Positions 34,116 through 42,983 of a stretch of DNA of 64,000 bases are shown here, in pieces. The stretch spans positions 682,001 through 746,000 of the forward strand of contig NZ_SPQQ01000001.1 of NCBI RefSeq assembly GCF_004766045.1, given 5' to 3'. The position numbers and the translations under genes were made by a program. Every line of letters starts with the position of its first letter. The stretch's first letter is position 1. The notes under the pieces were generated by a model. The model did no database searches and had not been told where the DNA came from. It saw only the letters and a program-made list of their open reading frames with translations. Origin of the DNA: Desulfosporosinus fructosivorans (GTDB taxonomy: Bacteria > Bacillota > Desulfitobacteriia > Desulfitobacteriales > Desulfitobacteriaceae).

Positions 34116-34769
34116 TTGGATAATCAGCTTATTAAATCGTTTTATGATCATAGAAATCAAGACCAAGGCACAAAAATGTCGGCGTATATGAAAGATCACT
34201 TTCAATATTTAGGGATACAGAAACCACAGAGGACAGAATTACAAAAGGAGTTCTTCAAACAAGTAAAGAAACAGAAAAGAATTGACTGGGATTTTATTTT
34301 TATGCTTTGGGATTTACCAGAACGTGAATTTCAGTATTTGGCGTTGGATTATATTCTTGCATTGAAGAATGGTCTGCAGAAAGCTGATATGGATAGAATT
34401 AAGTTGTTAATTATTAATAAATCGTGGTGGGACAGCGTGGACATCCTTGCTTCAAATATTACCGGAAATTTATGTGCCAAACATCAAGAAATTGTCCAAA
34501 GTCATATATTAAGTTGGGCTGAAAGTGATAATATATGGCTTGCCCGAGTTTCAATTTTATTCCAACTAAAATATAAGGAAAATACAGATGCAGAATTACT
34601 GAAGTTTATTATTACTAGGAACAGTAATAATAAAGAATTTTTTATTAATAAAGCTATTGGCTGGGCATTGAGAGAGTACTCGAAGACTGATAAAGAGTGG
34701 GTAAAATCGTTTTTAGAGTGTAATACACTGAACACTCTCAGTGTTCGTGAAGCAAGTAAATATTTGTAG
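34116..34769 (+). CDS. DNA alkylation repair protein (AlkD-like HEAT repeat)
   Basis: A 217-residue helical protein of the DNA alkylation repair family (AlkD type), which removes alkylated purines. Recurring helical pairs such as WDFIFMLWDLPEREFQYLALDY and WWDSVDILASNITGNLC match HEAT-like repeats, and the C-terminal INKAIGWALREYSKTD region is characteristic. TTG at 34116 follows GGAGGTCAC. It is AT-rich and sits in the insertion within the dcw cluster, so transfer is likely. Confidence 0.83.
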   Translation: MDNQLIKSFYDHRNQDQGTKMSAYMKDHFQYLGIQKPQRTELQKEFFKQVKKQKRIDWDFIFMLWDLPEREFQYLALDYILALKNGLQKADMDRIKLLIINKSWWDSVDILASNITGNLCAKHQEIVQSHILSWAESDNIWLARVSILFQLKYKENTDAELLKFIITRNSNNKEFFINKAIGWALREYSKTDKEWVKSFLECNTLNTLSVREASKYL

Positions 34770-34890
34770 ATTCGTCGCTATTTTGGAAATTTGGCTGCAA
34801 ATCACTTAGGGACATTCTCCTCGCCGCTCCGTTTTGATTTATCTAGAATCACAAGATAATATGTTTCAACGTAAAATAGGGGGGATATTT

Positions 34891-35469
34891 GTGCTGAGAA
34901 GTGAGTTAGCAGACCAATATCTGATGTCGGAATTATGGGAAACTGAAAGAATGATTATTAGGGATGCAAATTTACAGGATGTGGACAGATTACAAGAAAT
35001 ATATACGCAGTCTCGAAGTACGGAAGGATGGACTAGGGATGATGAATTGACACCCGACTATGTACTTAATGGTGTAGTCAAGGGTCATTTACCGCCTAAT
35101 GGAATGAAAGAGTTCTATAAAATTCAAGTAATTATCCATAAAAATTCATTTGAAATCATTGGATTTATAGAATTTTATCATGGCTATCCTGTCAAAGAGG
35201 TATTGTATATTGCTACACTTTTGCTGTGTGATGATTACAGAAACAATCGCTATGGTCAGGAAGTCATAAATAAATTATGTAAACAGGCACATGGATTAGG
35301 ATTCCATCAAGCTAGGCTTGGAGTTTCACTTAGAAATTGGTTAGGTATATATTTTTGGACTAAATTAGGGTTCGATACAATTATTAAATATTGTGGTAAT
35401 AAAATGCTTTCCAAGGATTCTTATGCATCGTTAGAACTAGGAAAAAACCTAAAAAGAATGCAAGTATAA
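34891..35469 (+). CDS. GNAT family acetyltransferase
   Basis: A 192-residue GNAT-like protein with ETERMIIRDANLQDVDRLQEIY at the start of the fold, LLCDDYRNNRYGQEVINKLC (motif A) and RNWLGIYFWTKLGFD (motif B). GTG at 34891 follows GGGGGG; the earlier in-frame start at 34834 lacks a site. The substrate is unknown. It belongs to the same AT-rich cassette as the AlkD-like gene. Confidence 0.75.
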   Translation: MLRSELADQYLMSELWETERMIIRDANLQDVDRLQEIYTQSRSTEGWTRDDELTPDYVLNGVVKGHLPPNGMKEFYKIQVIIHKNSFEIIGFIEFYHGYPVKEVLYIATLLLCDDYRNNRYGQEVINKLCKQAHGLGFHQARLGVSLRNWLGIYFWTKLGFDTIIKYCGNKMLSKDSYASLELGKNLKRMQV

Positions 35470-35525
35470 GAACTGTCCCCCAACTTGTACCTACTCGACC
35501 CAACTTGCATGAAGGAGGGATTTTT

Positions 35526-35873
35526 ATGGATAGAGAAAAGATGCTTTCTTATATTTTAGATTCTTACCCTTATCCGATTGTATTTGTTGATTGTGAACAC
35601 ATTATAAGATACATGAACAAAAGGGCAGAATACCATTATTACCAAGAGCGAGGTTATCGTGAGTTGATTGGCAAGTCGTTGTTTGATTGTCATCAGAATC
35701 CGAAATCAGAAGAAATGATAAAATCATGTGTTGAAAAACTTAAAAAACATGCAAATGAAGTGTTTTTGATGGTTAATGGACGAAATGAAAGAATTTACAT
35801 TGTTCCGGTCAGAGATGATCTTGGAGATTTGATAGGTTATTTTGAGAGGTTTGAGATGAATTTGCAAAAGTAA
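35526..35873 (+). CDS. Single PAS domain protein
   Basis: A 115-residue protein made almost entirely of one PAS fold (SYPYPIVFVDCEHIIRYMNKR, GKSLFDCHQNPKSEEMI, IYIVPVRDDLGDLIGYFERF). No output domain is attached. It may be a small sensor or adaptor; a heme or flavin ligand cannot be told. ATG at 35526 follows GAAGGAGGG. Just outside the inverted-repeat cassette. Confidence 0.78.
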   Translation: MDREKMLSYILDSYPYPIVFVDCEHIIRYMNKRAEYHYYQERGYRELIGKSLFDCHQNPKSEEMIKSCVEKLKKHANEVFLMVNGRNERIYIVPVRDDLGDLIGYFERFEMNLQK

Positions 35874-35918: not shown

Positions 35919-36055
35919 GTAGCCAATGGGTAACGAGAAGGAACCATCACTAAGTAGGCAAAGATGCCCGTATGGCAAGGGGCTCGCATATGCATAGCTC
36001 GGAATGCAAGTTAGAGATCCGTCCCTATACTTGCAGAAGAACGGAGGATTTTAGT

Positions 36056-37426
36056 GTGAATTGGATGAATAAACGAGTCTTGGTTATTGGTGCAGGCTTG
36101 AGTGGTCAAGCGGCCGTGCAGAAGCTGCAGCGTTTAGGTGCGGAGGTTTTCTTGACAGATAGTAAGACGCTGGAGCAGCTCGCTGGTGTTGAGGAATTAG
36201 GACTTGATCAGGCACATTTGCTTCTTGGCAGTGTACCTGAATTAATAGGGATTAAGCCGGTACTTTTGGTATTATCCCCAGGGGTATCTCCTAAACTTTC
36301 CTTGGTACAGGAGGCTATTTCTCAAAATGTTACTGTGTGGAGTGAAGTTGAGCTTGCTATGGTTGATTGTCCTGGTCTATGTGTTGGGATAACTGGTACC
36401 AATGGGAAAACAACGACAACTACTTTGATCGGCGAATTAGCGAAGAGAACGGGTCGGCCTACGGTTGTCGCTGGAAATATTGGGGTGGCTTTAAGCGGGC
36501 AAGTGAAGGGCTTGGGAGAAGATAGTATAGTTGTGGCTGAACTTTCGAGCTTTCAACTAGAGTTTATTGATAAACTGCGTGTCCACGTGGCTATTTTACT
36601 GAATATCACCCCAGATCATTTGGACAGGCACGGTACGTTAGAAGAGTATCTTAGGGTCAAAGCACGAGTTTTTGAGAACCAAACAGCTACAGATTTGGCA
36701 ATTTTGAATTGGGATGATCCATTAGTTCGGGATTTGGGACCGAAGTTGAAAAGTCGGGTCTTGTATTTTAGTCCAACCTCTTTTTTGCAGGACGGAATTA
36801 GTCTGTGGCACGATGAGATCGTATATTCGGAAAAAGAAAAGAGGACTATGATTCCCATTATTCCGCGCAAGGATCTCCATCTTCGGGGTGCTCATAATTT
36901 GGAAAATGTTATGGCAGCAGCAGCGACAGCGAGAGCGTTTGGCCTTTCTTGGACTGAGATTGCTGAAGGACTCTCTGAGTTCAAAGGGGTGGAGCATCGA
37001 GAAGAAATTGTAGGGAGTTTTGAGGGGATTCTTTTTGTCAATGATTCTAAAGGGACTAACACAGATGCAGCAACTAAGGCTCTGTTGGCGTTTGAGGAAC
37101 CTTTAGTTCTGATTGCGGGGGGGAAAAACAAAGGACTTGATTTTCATGATTTCATGAAGGTTGTTCGAGTAAAGGTTAAAAGTCTAATTTTATTGGGCTT
37201 AGCGGCTGATGAGATGGAAAAGGCGGCTCGAGATGAAGGGGTACAGACGATTATTAGGGCTACCACATTTGAGGATGGGGTAGAGAAGGCGATAGGTGAG
37301 GCCATACCTGGGGATGTGGTTTTATTATCCCCTGCTTGTACAAGTTGGGATATGTTTAAGAGTTATGAAGAAAGAGGGGAATTGTTTAAGGAGTTAGTGC
37401 GTAGGCATTATAGTAAACCCATTTAA
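36056..37426 (+). CDS. murD: UDP-MurNAc-L-alanine--D-glutamate ligase
   Basis: A 456-residue MurD, adding D-Glu. P-loop GITGTNGKTTTTTLI, HLDRHGTLEEYLRVKARVF and VNDSKGTNTDAATKAL are present. GTG at 36056 with GGAGG 8 nt upstream gives the family N terminus (NKRVLVIGAGLSGQAAVQ); in-frame starts upstream add unrelated residues. It follows the insertion directly. Confidence 0.93.
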   Translation: MNWMNKRVLVIGAGLSGQAAVQKLQRLGAEVFLTDSKTLEQLAGVEELGLDQAHLLLGSVPELIGIKPVLLVLSPGVSPKLSLVQEAISQNVTVWSEVELAMVDCPGLCVGITGTNGKTTTTTLIGELAKRTGRPTVVAGNIGVALSGQVKGLGEDSIVVAELSSFQLEFIDKLRVHVAILLNITPDHLDRHGTLEEYLRVKARVFENQTATDLAILNWDDPLVRDLGPKLKSRVLYFSPTSFLQDGISLWHDEIVYSEKEKRTMIPIIPRKDLHLRGAHNLENVMAAAATARAFGLSWTEIAEGLSEFKGVEHREEIVGSFEGILFVNDSKGTNTDAATKALLAFEEPLVLIAGGKNKGLDFHDFMKVVRVKVKSLILLGLAADEMEKAARDEGVQTIIRATTFEDGVEKAIGEAIPGDVVLLSPACTSWDMFKSYEERGELFKELVRRHYSKPI

Positions 37427-38565: not shown

Positions 38566-39675
38566 GTGCGTGTAATCTTGACTGGTGGTGGAACAGGTGG
38601 GCATATTTATCCAGCGTTAGCTATTGCCAAAGGTTTGTTGGCGCGTGATCCTGAAACCAAAATTCTCTATGTGGGAATAAAGGATGGAATGGAGGCGCGC
38701 TTGGTGCCGGAGGCGGGCATAAAGTTTGCGGGGATCTCAGGAAAGGGACTTCCACGTAGATTAAGTCTGGATACGATAAAGGTTATCGGTACAAGTTTCA
38801 AGGCCCTCTGGGAGACGAAGAAAATATTGCATCAGTTTCATCCCGATCTGGTGATAGGAACAGGGGGATATGTGTCAGGCCCTGTTGTTTTGACGGCTGC
38901 CCTTTTTAATATTCCAACGTTGCTTCATGAACAAAATGCTTTGCCTGGAATTACCAATCGAGTTTTGGCCCGGGTAGTACGCCGTGTCATGGTAACTTTC
39001 CCAGAGAGTATGGAACGTTTTGGTGTTAAGAAGAAGCTAGATCTTGTTGGACTACCGGTCCGCCCCGAAATTGGACATGTGTCTCGAGAGGCAGGGGCAG
39101 CAAAATTTAAGTTGCGACCGGATCGATTAACTTTGCTGGTGACAGGCGGGAGCAGAGGTGCTCGAATGTTAAATCAGGCTATGATCGAGGTCTTGTCGCA
39201 GCTTGCCCAACACTCGGATATTCAGGTGATCTGGGCAACCGGAAAAACGACGTATACGGAAACTGTTGAGGGGTTAAAGAAACGGGGGATTTTCTGGGAT
39301 CGTCCTCAGTGGCGCGTCCTAGAGTATTTGAAAGATATGCCCGAGGCTCTCGCCTGTACAGACATTTTTGTGGGACGGGCAGGGGCAACTTCTCTGGCTG
39401 AGTTGATGGTTGCGGGTATTCCCAGTCTGTTAATTCCCTACCCTTTTGCAGCTGAAAATCATCAAGAATATAATGCCCAGGCACTAGCACAGGTGGGCGC
39501 TTCTAAAATTATTCTAGACTCTGAATTAGACGGTCAACGATTGTGGAAAGAATTGGAGGGGCTGATTACTCAACCTTCGCTCCTTACTGAAATGGGTGCT
39601 GCGGCTAAGACACTGGCTCAGCCACACGCTTTGGATAAGATCGTGGACCTTTGTAAGTCCACTGCTTGGCACTAG
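38566..39675 (+). CDS. murG: UDP-GlcNAc transferase MurG
   Basis: A 369-residue GT28 enzyme that turns lipid I into lipid II. GGGTGGHIYPALAIAKGL, GTGGYVSGPVVL, HEQNALPGITNRVL, GGSRGARMLNQ and GRAGATSLAEL are all in place. GTG at 38566. Confidence 0.95.
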   Translation: MRVILTGGGTGGHIYPALAIAKGLLARDPETKILYVGIKDGMEARLVPEAGIKFAGISGKGLPRRLSLDTIKVIGTSFKALWETKKILHQFHPDLVIGTGGYVSGPVVLTAALFNIPTLLHEQNALPGITNRVLARVVRRVMVTFPESMERFGVKKKLDLVGLPVRPEIGHVSREAGAAKFKLRPDRLTLLVTGGSRGARMLNQAMIEVLSQLAQHSDIQVIWATGKTTYTETVEGLKKRGIFWDRPQWRVLEYLKDMPEALACTDIFVGRAGATSLAELMVAGIPSLLIPYPFAAENHQEYNAQALAQVGASKIILDSELDGQRLWKELEGLITQPSLLTEMGAAAKTLAQPHALDKIVDLCKSTAWH

Positions 39676-39822
39676 CTCGTGGTTTGTGGTTCGATATTCG
39701 TGGTTCGAACGGAGAACAACGGATTTGAAGATTAAGTTTGTGGTTCGAACCACAAATATAATATTCAACCACATGTATGCCGTTCTAACCACGAACCAAG
39801 AATATCTAACCACGATTACGTT
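39675..39822. repeat. Imperfect ~150-bp palindrome of GTGGTTCG repeats
   Basis: The left half (GTGGTTTGTGGTTCGATATT, then CGTGGTTCGAACGG) is answered on the other strand by GTGGTTAGATATTC, CGTGGTTAGAACGG; both meet at GTGGTTCGAACCAC (39752-39765). Spurious frames arise on both strands. Relatives lie at 15046-15160, 42936-42983 and 52255-52432. Confidence 0.75.
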
Positions 39823-39882
39823 CACACCTTTTTACTCCAATGCATAGCATATGGCAGTATACAAACGAAAGGAGTGAGCGTG

Positions 39883-40725
39883 GTGTGGCCAAAGAGAAAG
39901 ATACAATTGGTTGCCTCTTCTGCGGCTCCAGGAATTAACGGAGTTAGGGCCGTGTTGAAGGGGATGAAGCTTGAATTTTTCGAGGCGGAGGATTTAAGCG
40001 GAGGGATCATAGAAAATTGGTGGGAGAAGCCATTTGATCAAAAGGCTGCGACCGAGGGGGCAGGGCCTGTGACGGACATCTTATTCTGGTCTGAGGGGCG
40101 AGAAAATGCCTTCTCAGAAGGCTTGAACCAGCAATCGATTGAATCATTCATACATAATATTTTAGAGGATTATGAAATTTTAAGAGTTTCTGAACCGACG
40201 ATTTTAATAGAAGGGCGACCCTTGTTAGGGCATGTTTTGCATGAGGCTGGATTTGAACCAACTATACTCTGGCCGACGACAGACGGGGATTGGCAATGCG
40301 AAAGAAAACAAGGCAACCATTGGGTCATACCTGAGTCGTGGATGGTGGGCTCTTACGAAGCGCGCCGAGCCACGAACTTAGTTCCTTCCCCGAATGTCGG
40401 AGCCGAAGAAAAAGTGACTTGGGAAGTCCGCGCAGATAGGATCGATTTTTATCAAGGGCAAGATGGTCTGAAATTCGTTGGCCAAGTTCCAAGGTGGCCT
40501 GAACTAATGGAAGAGCATGTAGCTGCTGAAACAATCGCAAGGTGCATTGAATTAGGAGTTTCTTGGCTGGATATTCGGTTGGCTCTTAGTTCTTTTTGGC
40601 AGAATATAATAATGACGGATAACTTGAGGTGGAACATTAATGATATTGGATGGAATGGCTGGACGGGTGGAGAAGAATTACCCTCTGCACCAATTGACCA
40701 CGTGGAAGATTGGTGGGCCCGCTGA
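39883..40725 (+). CDS. MurC-like protein lacking the ATP P-loop and ligase domain
   Basis: A 280-residue protein in the usual murC position. The N terminus (SSAAPGINGVRAVLKGMKL) parallels the MurC first domain. PTILIEGRPLLGHVLHEAGF parallels the MurC P-loop helix but the GTHGKT loop is missing, and EEHVAAETIARCIELGVSWL parallels the motif before the third domain, which is absent. It cannot be an active ligase if this reading is right. GTG at 39883 has AAAGGAG 8 nt upstream. The 3' end overlaps murB out of frame, as if the original end was deleted. Confidence 0.55.
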   Translation: MWPKRKIQLVASSAAPGINGVRAVLKGMKLEFFEAEDLSGGIIENWWEKPFDQKAATEGAGPVTDILFWSEGRENAFSEGLNQQSIESFIHNILEDYEILRVSEPTILIEGRPLLGHVLHEAGFEPTILWPTTDGDWQCERKQGNHWVIPESWMVGSYEARRATNLVPSPNVGAEEKVTWEVRADRIDFYQGQDGLKFVGQVPRWPELMEEHVAAETIARCIELGVSWLDIRLALSSFWQNIIMTDNLRWNINDIGWNGWTGGEELPSAPIDHVEDWWAR

Positions 40726-41575
40726 GGCTGTGTATTGGCCCCAAACAAAGGAGGACCTGGCGACGGTGTGGCAACGTGCTCAGAAGGCAGATGTCCCTGT
40801 TTGGTTAATCGGGCAGGGTTCAAATCTACTGGTTCCGGATTCAGGGCTTCCTGGGGTTACATTGGTGACCACATCACTGCGAGCGATAGAGTGGGGTAAT
40901 TACACAGTTCAGGTTGAAGCGGGGTACCCGTTAGCCCGTTTAGCCCAAGAAGCGGGGGAACGTGGCTTTAGCGGCTTAGCCTTTGCTCGGGGAATTCCCG
41001 GATCTGTTGGCGGCGCAGTTATGATGAATGCTGGTGCTCATGGAGGAGCAATGGCTCCTCACATAGCTGCTGTTACTGCACTTTGGCCGGATGGTACGGT
41101 TAAGAAGGTAGGAAAAGCTGAACTCGAATTTGCTTATCGGTCCTGTTCCTTGCGCGGCCACGCGTGGGTACTGGAGGTTGAACTTATGTTTGCTCCAGGG
41201 GATCGTGAAACGATTTTGCAGGAGATGAAAGAAAACTTAACGAAGAGAGCTCTCAATCAACCTCTTGAGAAGCCAAGTGCGGGAAGTGTTTTTCAAAATC
41301 CTCCGGGTGATTCGGCCGGGCGACTAATTGAAGCCGCTGGTTGGAAAGGGAGAGGCGTGGGAGGAGCTCAGGTTTCTACTAAACACTCGAACTTTATTGT
41401 GAATACGGGTAATGCCAAGGCTATCGATGTTCTCACTTTGATCGAGAAGATCCAGAAAAGTGTAGAGTTGGAATTTGGAGTTATCTTGCAAACGGAAGTA
41501 GCTTACTTAAACGATACACAATACACGAGGAGCGATGCACGAATTAAAGGCGAACAAAGTTTGGAGAACAACTAA
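40640..41575 (+). CDS. murB: UDP-N-acetylenolpyruvoylglucosamine reductase
   Basis: A 311-residue FAD enzyme reducing enolpyruvyl-UDP-GlcNAc to UDP-MurNAc. Visible are TTWKIGGPAE, GQGSNLLVPD, the catalytic Ser in PSAGSVFQNP and the C-terminal Glu in LQTEVAYLN. The exact start is unclear (ATG at 40640 or 40655, or GTG at 40667), and any of them overlaps the MurC-like gene. Confidence 0.92.
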   Translation: MILDGMAGRVEKNYPLHQLTTWKIGGPAEAVYWPQTKEDLATVWQRAQKADVPVWLIGQGSNLLVPDSGLPGVTLVTTSLRAIEWGNYTVQVEAGYPLARLAQEAGERGFSGLAFARGIPGSVGGAVMMNAGAHGGAMAPHIAAVTALWPDGTVKKVGKAELEFAYRSCSLRGHAWVLEVELMFAPGDRETILQEMKENLTKRALNQPLEKPSAGSVFQNPPGDSAGRLIEAAGWKGRGVGGAQVSTKHSNFIVNTGNAKAIDVLTLIEKIQKSVELEFGVILQTEVAYLNDTQYTRSDARIKGEQSLENN

Positions 41576-42935: not shown

Positions 42936-42983
42936 AATTCGTGGTTCGATGTCCGATATTTGATATTCGAACCACAAACCTTT
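42936..42983. repeat. Short palindromic GTGGTTCG repeat after murA
   Basis: TTCGTGGTTCG and CGAACCACAAA face each other around GATATTTGATATTC. Same family as 39675-39822. Confidence 0.6.

Follow-up and report, generated by a model that had tools for sequence, protein, structure and literature searches.

In the genome of Desulfosporosinus fructosivorans, the conserved neighbors murG (positions 38566–39675) and murB (positions 40640–41575; Pfam MurB_C and FAD_binding_4), both on the + strand, flank an open frame that spans positions 39874–40725 of the same strand of the window (the whole 64,000-nucleotide stretch of DNA that was analyzed). The frame can begin at GTG 39874, 39880 or 39883. The last is best supported by comparison with relatives, since their upstream GTG and ATG codons vary and the start codon directly before TGG-CCN (Trp-Pro) is the most consistently kept. 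From this start, the gene (39883–40725) consists of 280 codons and begins 8 nt after a ribosome-binding site, AAAGGAG (39868–39874), that is the same or similar in relatives. An intact 280-codon frame with its own AAAGGAG site between murG and murB had been proposed in the initial annotation and is borne out here: the frame is open, both neighbors are conserved, and homologues are present in 44 of the 46 Desulfitobacteriaceae genomes covered by a class-wide search. Thus, it is a real, conserved protein gene. The encoded protein, a MurC-derived pseudo-ligase, has no match in Pfam, NCBIfam or the PDB sequences at E-values up to 10, and a search of the genome with TIGR01082 gave no match at this locus. 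The literature searched contains no description of this gene, nor of any bacterial Mur pseudo-ligase. The protein belongs to an uncatalogued family, and current annotation would call such a gene hypothetical.

The region between murG and the pseudo-ligase contains a near-perfect palindrome of ∼140 nt (39676–39820), with a predicted RNA fold of −65.4 kcal/mol (z −6.6). The core sequence GTGGTTCGAACCAC occurs again upstream of ftsQ (42959–42978), so the palindrome looks like a dispersed palindromic repeat. Elsewhere in the cell-wall cluster, the interval between mraY and murD (34116–35873) encodes a DNA alkylation repair enzyme of the AlkD type, a GNAT acetyltransferase and a small protein with a PAS domain. 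The murD frame begins with an unusual extension of ∼30 residues (MARGSHMHSSECK..., 35972–36070) ahead of the normal MurD start MNKRVLVIGAG, with translation probably beginning at the ATG of this later sequence.

The final 86 nt of the pseudo-ligase frame (40640–40725) are murB read out of frame, as had been noticed for the last ∼25 codons. The accompanying suggestion of a deletion that fused a murC remnant to murB is not entirely accurate, as the tail merely reads on into the overlapping start of murB. No single continuous frame for the two proteins was found; the frames differ, and murB has its own start (ATG 40640) and its own ribosome site, TTGAGGTGG (40624–40632), which lies inside the pseudo-ligase frame 7 nt before that start. 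The nucleotides of this site are nearly invariant across the genus and read as NLRW in the pseudo-ligase frame, which accounts for the conserved appearance of the NLRW block near its C-terminal end. Nearly all members have the overlap. However, five relatives stop earlier, either directly after the core at residue ∼252 (G001 and G017) or within the overlap at residue 282 (G006, G007 and G011), and G030 keeps the protein without any overlap. The overlap is, therefore, a dispensable tail, modeled with pLDDT below 50, and the protein proper corresponds to approximately the first 245 residues.

A search of 61 genomes located the pseudo-ligase in all 30 genomes of the genus and in all seven of other genera of the family, compared to none of the 24 from sister families. 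The order murG-ORF-murB-murA is found in every genome in which both neighbors are readable. The gene is apparently absent from G067, where the murG region is missing from the assembly, whereas G069 represents a true, clean loss, with murG and murB separated by a spacer of ∼105 bp; the pseudo-ligase is, thus, not strictly essential. The median pairwise dN/dS of its core is 0.23 over ten pairs, compared to 0.08 for MurG and 0.15 for MurB in the same pairs. The protein is, therefore, under purifying selection by the kind of comparison across relatives that the initial annotation had proposed, and evolves faster than its neighbors (∼3 times faster than MurG). The core is open in the copies read, from at least eight genera, with length changes that are in-frame only.

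Three independent comparisons relate this family to MurC. A family profile searched against 71 MurC proteins at full sensitivity gave a best E-value of 3e-10, compared to 0.035 for 270 decoys (MurG, MurB, MurA, FtsW, FtsQ and MurD proteins). When entire genomes from the class and the phylum were scanned with this profile, seven hits at E ≤ 0.01 came from outside the family; six are inside murC genes and the seventh is a stop-filled stretch. The matches within murC genes fall in two separate parts (profile columns 71–143 and 204–257). Profile-profile alignment with MurC by hhalign scored 38.3, with a maximum of 28.1 among 400 shuffles. Weak hhalign matches were also obtained to MurD (P 0.007) and MurB (P 0.002–0.003). 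The former spans the counterpart of HN..NA and fits the shared fold; the latter was taken as chance. An AlphaFold model made without templates and solely from family members (21 sequences) has a mean pLDDT of 70.6 and a pTM of 0.68, and most of the helices and strands of its core exceed a pLDDT of 85. The 27 best PDB matches of this model in Foldseek are all MurC crystal structures (best E 1.7e-6), with Mpl, MurE and MurD next, and its VIA comparison with MurC gave a Z of 11.6 over 226–232 residues. A second model, of a distant member with 33% identity, again placed MurC and MurD first, weakly (best E 0.007). Since the profile search with decoys, the profile-profile alignment with shuffles and the fold comparison agree, the relation is secure, and we consider the pseudo-ligase a degraded MurC.

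The remnant retains two domains. The first (39886–40170; AlphaFold residues 1–95) is colinear with the Rossmann-like N-terminal domain of MurC in the profile, Foldseek and VIA alignments. Domain 1 is the UDP-binding domain of Mur ligases, and in MurC its glycine loop and SSA motif hold UDP-MurNAc; both the loop (GxGGxGM) and the SSA motif are replaced in the pseudo-ligase. At the position of the MurC ATP loop V(T/A)GTHGKTTTT, an ungapped alignment places VSEPTILIEGR (40186–40218). The shortened middle domain follows (40219–40605; AlphaFold residues 96–244), which is supported by both profile-matching parts and in which AGFEPTILW aligns with AGLDPTIVV of MurC, and VPRWPE..EE..A..IA...LGVSW.DI..AL with VPG.HN..NALA.IA...LGI....I..AL. 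About half of the MurC middle domain is deleted. The MurC pattern of first and middle domains that was originally read from this frame is, thus, correct for the fold of domain 1 and only partly so for the middle domain, while the lack of the GTHGKT loop and of the third domain is fully corroborated: none of 31 family proteins has a P-loop, compared to all 71 MurC proteins, and the frame ends before domain 3, which is missing in all members compared. A sequencing error as the cause of the missing P-loop is ruled out, since its loss is common to all members. The DDYAHHPT, QPH..SR, DH.D and HN..NALA motifs are likewise absent from all 31 proteins. From the biochemistry of Mur ligases, a protein without such motifs can neither generate the acyl-phosphate nor bind ATP-Mg. 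Judged from its sequence, ligase chemistry is excluded in practice for the pseudo-ligase and would not be expected, and binding of a nucleotide sugar appears doubtful. The family has gained invariant residues (W5, P6, W140, W150, W156, Y193, G203 and W231, numbered from the 39874 start), and its conserved motifs include ones that are absent from MurC.

The absence of a functional murC from the window, as initially described, agrees with our search, which found none above the family cut-off there. The search for an intact gene elsewhere, also suggested at that stage, identified one on another contig (L001:1492–2844; G000:C1:7781–9106), with 469 bits against a cut-off of 335. The presence of this intact, unlinked MurC explains why the loss of chemistry at the cluster could be tolerated. 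Sixty of the 61 relatives searched likewise have an intact MurC elsewhere, each with one match at E ≤ 1e-60. In a tree, the MurC of the order groups with unlinked MurC proteins from a distant family of the phylum, and none of the 36 cluster-type MurC proteins falls within this group (support 100/97, with a program warning of long branches meeting at this point). Throughout the order, the functional MurC carries an SCEYRRHF motif, in contrast to the ADESDGSF of cluster-type MurC in the phylum.

Genomes of another order in the class have an intact murC directly after murG, in one case with murB shown on its other side. In the two sister families, murB comes next to murG across a median spacer of 104 bp, apart from a few genomes where murA or nothing readable follows murG, and no remnant of the pseudo-ligase was found in the murG-murB spacers. 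When the remnants were included in the tree, their branch was very long (∼ten changes per column) and grouping with the unlinked MurC was not rejected (p-AU 0.29). Because no firm place for the remnant emerges from the direct tree, gene position is the basis for inferring its descent from the cluster murC. The simplest history is that the unlinked MurC replaced the cluster murC in the ancestor of the order, and that the old gene was lost in the sister families and converted in the Desulfitobacteriaceae. A second MurC, from a different lineage, would have entered the ancestor at a site unlinked to the cluster; the lineage and position are those of the present gene, and the gain would be by transfer. 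The copy in the division and cell-wall (dcw) cluster would then have lost its ATP loop, other catalytic motifs and third domain, as seen in all present members. Finally, it vanished from two sister families while a two-domain remnant was kept in the Desulfitobacteriaceae, where it is under purifying selection today. We consider these three steps, taken jointly, very likely.

The initial annotation had offered a scaffold, a sensor of UDP-MurNAc or a relic as possible roles, of which a scaffold is, by inference, the best that remains. A protein of MurC descent has lost its catalytic motifs and remained under selection, as a pseudoenzyme would. In a fourth step, the remnant would bind other proteins and serve as scaffold or regulator for the cytoplasmic Mur machinery encoded next to it (MurG and MurB) or for the catalytic MurC. 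This protein-binding role is favored because the two-domain fold and the newly conserved residues are constrained and the gene always lies between murG and murB; on its own, we advance this step tentatively, at slightly less than an even chance. A precedent exists in Bordetella, where Mur ligases meet on MurG: it binds a MurE-MurF ligase fusion and has been proposed as a Mur scaffold (PMC6420597). The overall proposal, that the old dcw murC was reduced to a non-catalytic partner of the cytoplasmic Mur machinery, may be as easily right as wrong. The same balance applies to its more specific form, in which the displaced MurC has become a dedicated non-catalytic subunit or regulator whose new, conserved, tryptophan-rich surface would bind MurG, MurB or the replacement MurC.

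The remnant could instead be a sensor that has retained binding of UDP-MurNAc, or of a related nucleotide sugar, and reports the level of this ligand to MurC, MurB or MurG. The UDP-binding domain is predicted to persist as a fold, and the invariant residues, many of them tryptophans, could build a new site. However, this role seems weakened, since the sugar-nucleotide motifs of domain 1 have gone as well, and we regard it as unlikely. Alternatively, the frame may be kept mainly as a leader that gives ribosomes access to the overlapping murB by translational coupling, with a protein that does little. The murB ribosome site and start are the most conserved nucleotides of the tail, and the overlap is nearly universal among members. 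However, selection acts on the amino acids of the core (dN/dS ∼0.23), which is predicted to fold as MurC domains; murB directly follows murG without such a frame in the sister families and in G069, and the protein persists without the overlap in G030. Such a leader is, thus, distinctly unlikely.

A simple relic in slow, functionless decay might account for the faster evolution relative to the neighbors, the variable tail and the clean loss in G069. The core is, however, open in the copies read, changes length only in frame, has a dN/dS well below 1 and contains conserved motifs that MurC lacks, so that decay of this kind is improbable. The earlier argument that an open frame speaks against simple decay is strengthened by the dN/dS and by the retention in 44 of 46 genomes, and the relic role offered beside it is disfavored by the same purifying selection and family-wide retention. 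A decayed pseudogene was also ruled against, as the stops in the copies read are confined to the tail, from residue ∼251 onward; the internal stops apparent in five genomes are all located after the core. An unrelated protein that resembles MurC by chance or through a common Rossmann-like arrangement, which the lack of database matches might suggest, is highly improbable, as the three comparisons point specifically to MurC among Rossmann proteins and the locus is where murC stands in relatives.

A non-catalytic partner of the Mur machinery would bear on whether the cytoplasmic Mur enzymes form one complex, a long-standing question. Here, catalysis and presence have come apart in evolution: the catalytic MurC relocated, and a copy without an active site stayed at the place of MurC in the operon. 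If the pseudo-ligase binds other Mur proteins, then MurC would have a structural job beyond catalysis, and the pseudo-ligase would be a clean reagent for its study. What gives the finding its value is a new pseudo-ligase family, maintained by selection within an essential pathway, and the clear history of replacement that accompanies it.

Among known systems, the pseudo-ligase is closest to intact MurC in gene position, in the fold of domains 1 and 2 and in a colinear, weak sequence similarity, but it lacks the P-loop, the metal-binding and HN..N motifs, about half of the middle domain and domain 3. The unlinked functional MurC of the Desulfitobacteriales, for which each genome yielded no other intact MurC, belongs to the same superfamily; in contrast, it is full length with all motifs and represents a separate lineage, shared with a family from a distant part of the phylum. 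PAP11, a MurE-like subunit of the plastid-encoded RNA polymerase (PMC9456514) whose structure (8r6s_Q) is among the Foldseek matches of our model, also uses a Mur ligase fold as part of a larger complex, although it is derived from MurE, is full length and acts in plastid transcription rather than in wall synthesis. In Verrucomicrobium spinosum, MurB and MurC form an in-frame fusion with an active ligase (PMC4803751). Like the locus described here, it physically couples murB to a MurC-type sequence, whereas the pseudo-ligase and MurB are separate proteins from overlapping frames, the former with no active site.
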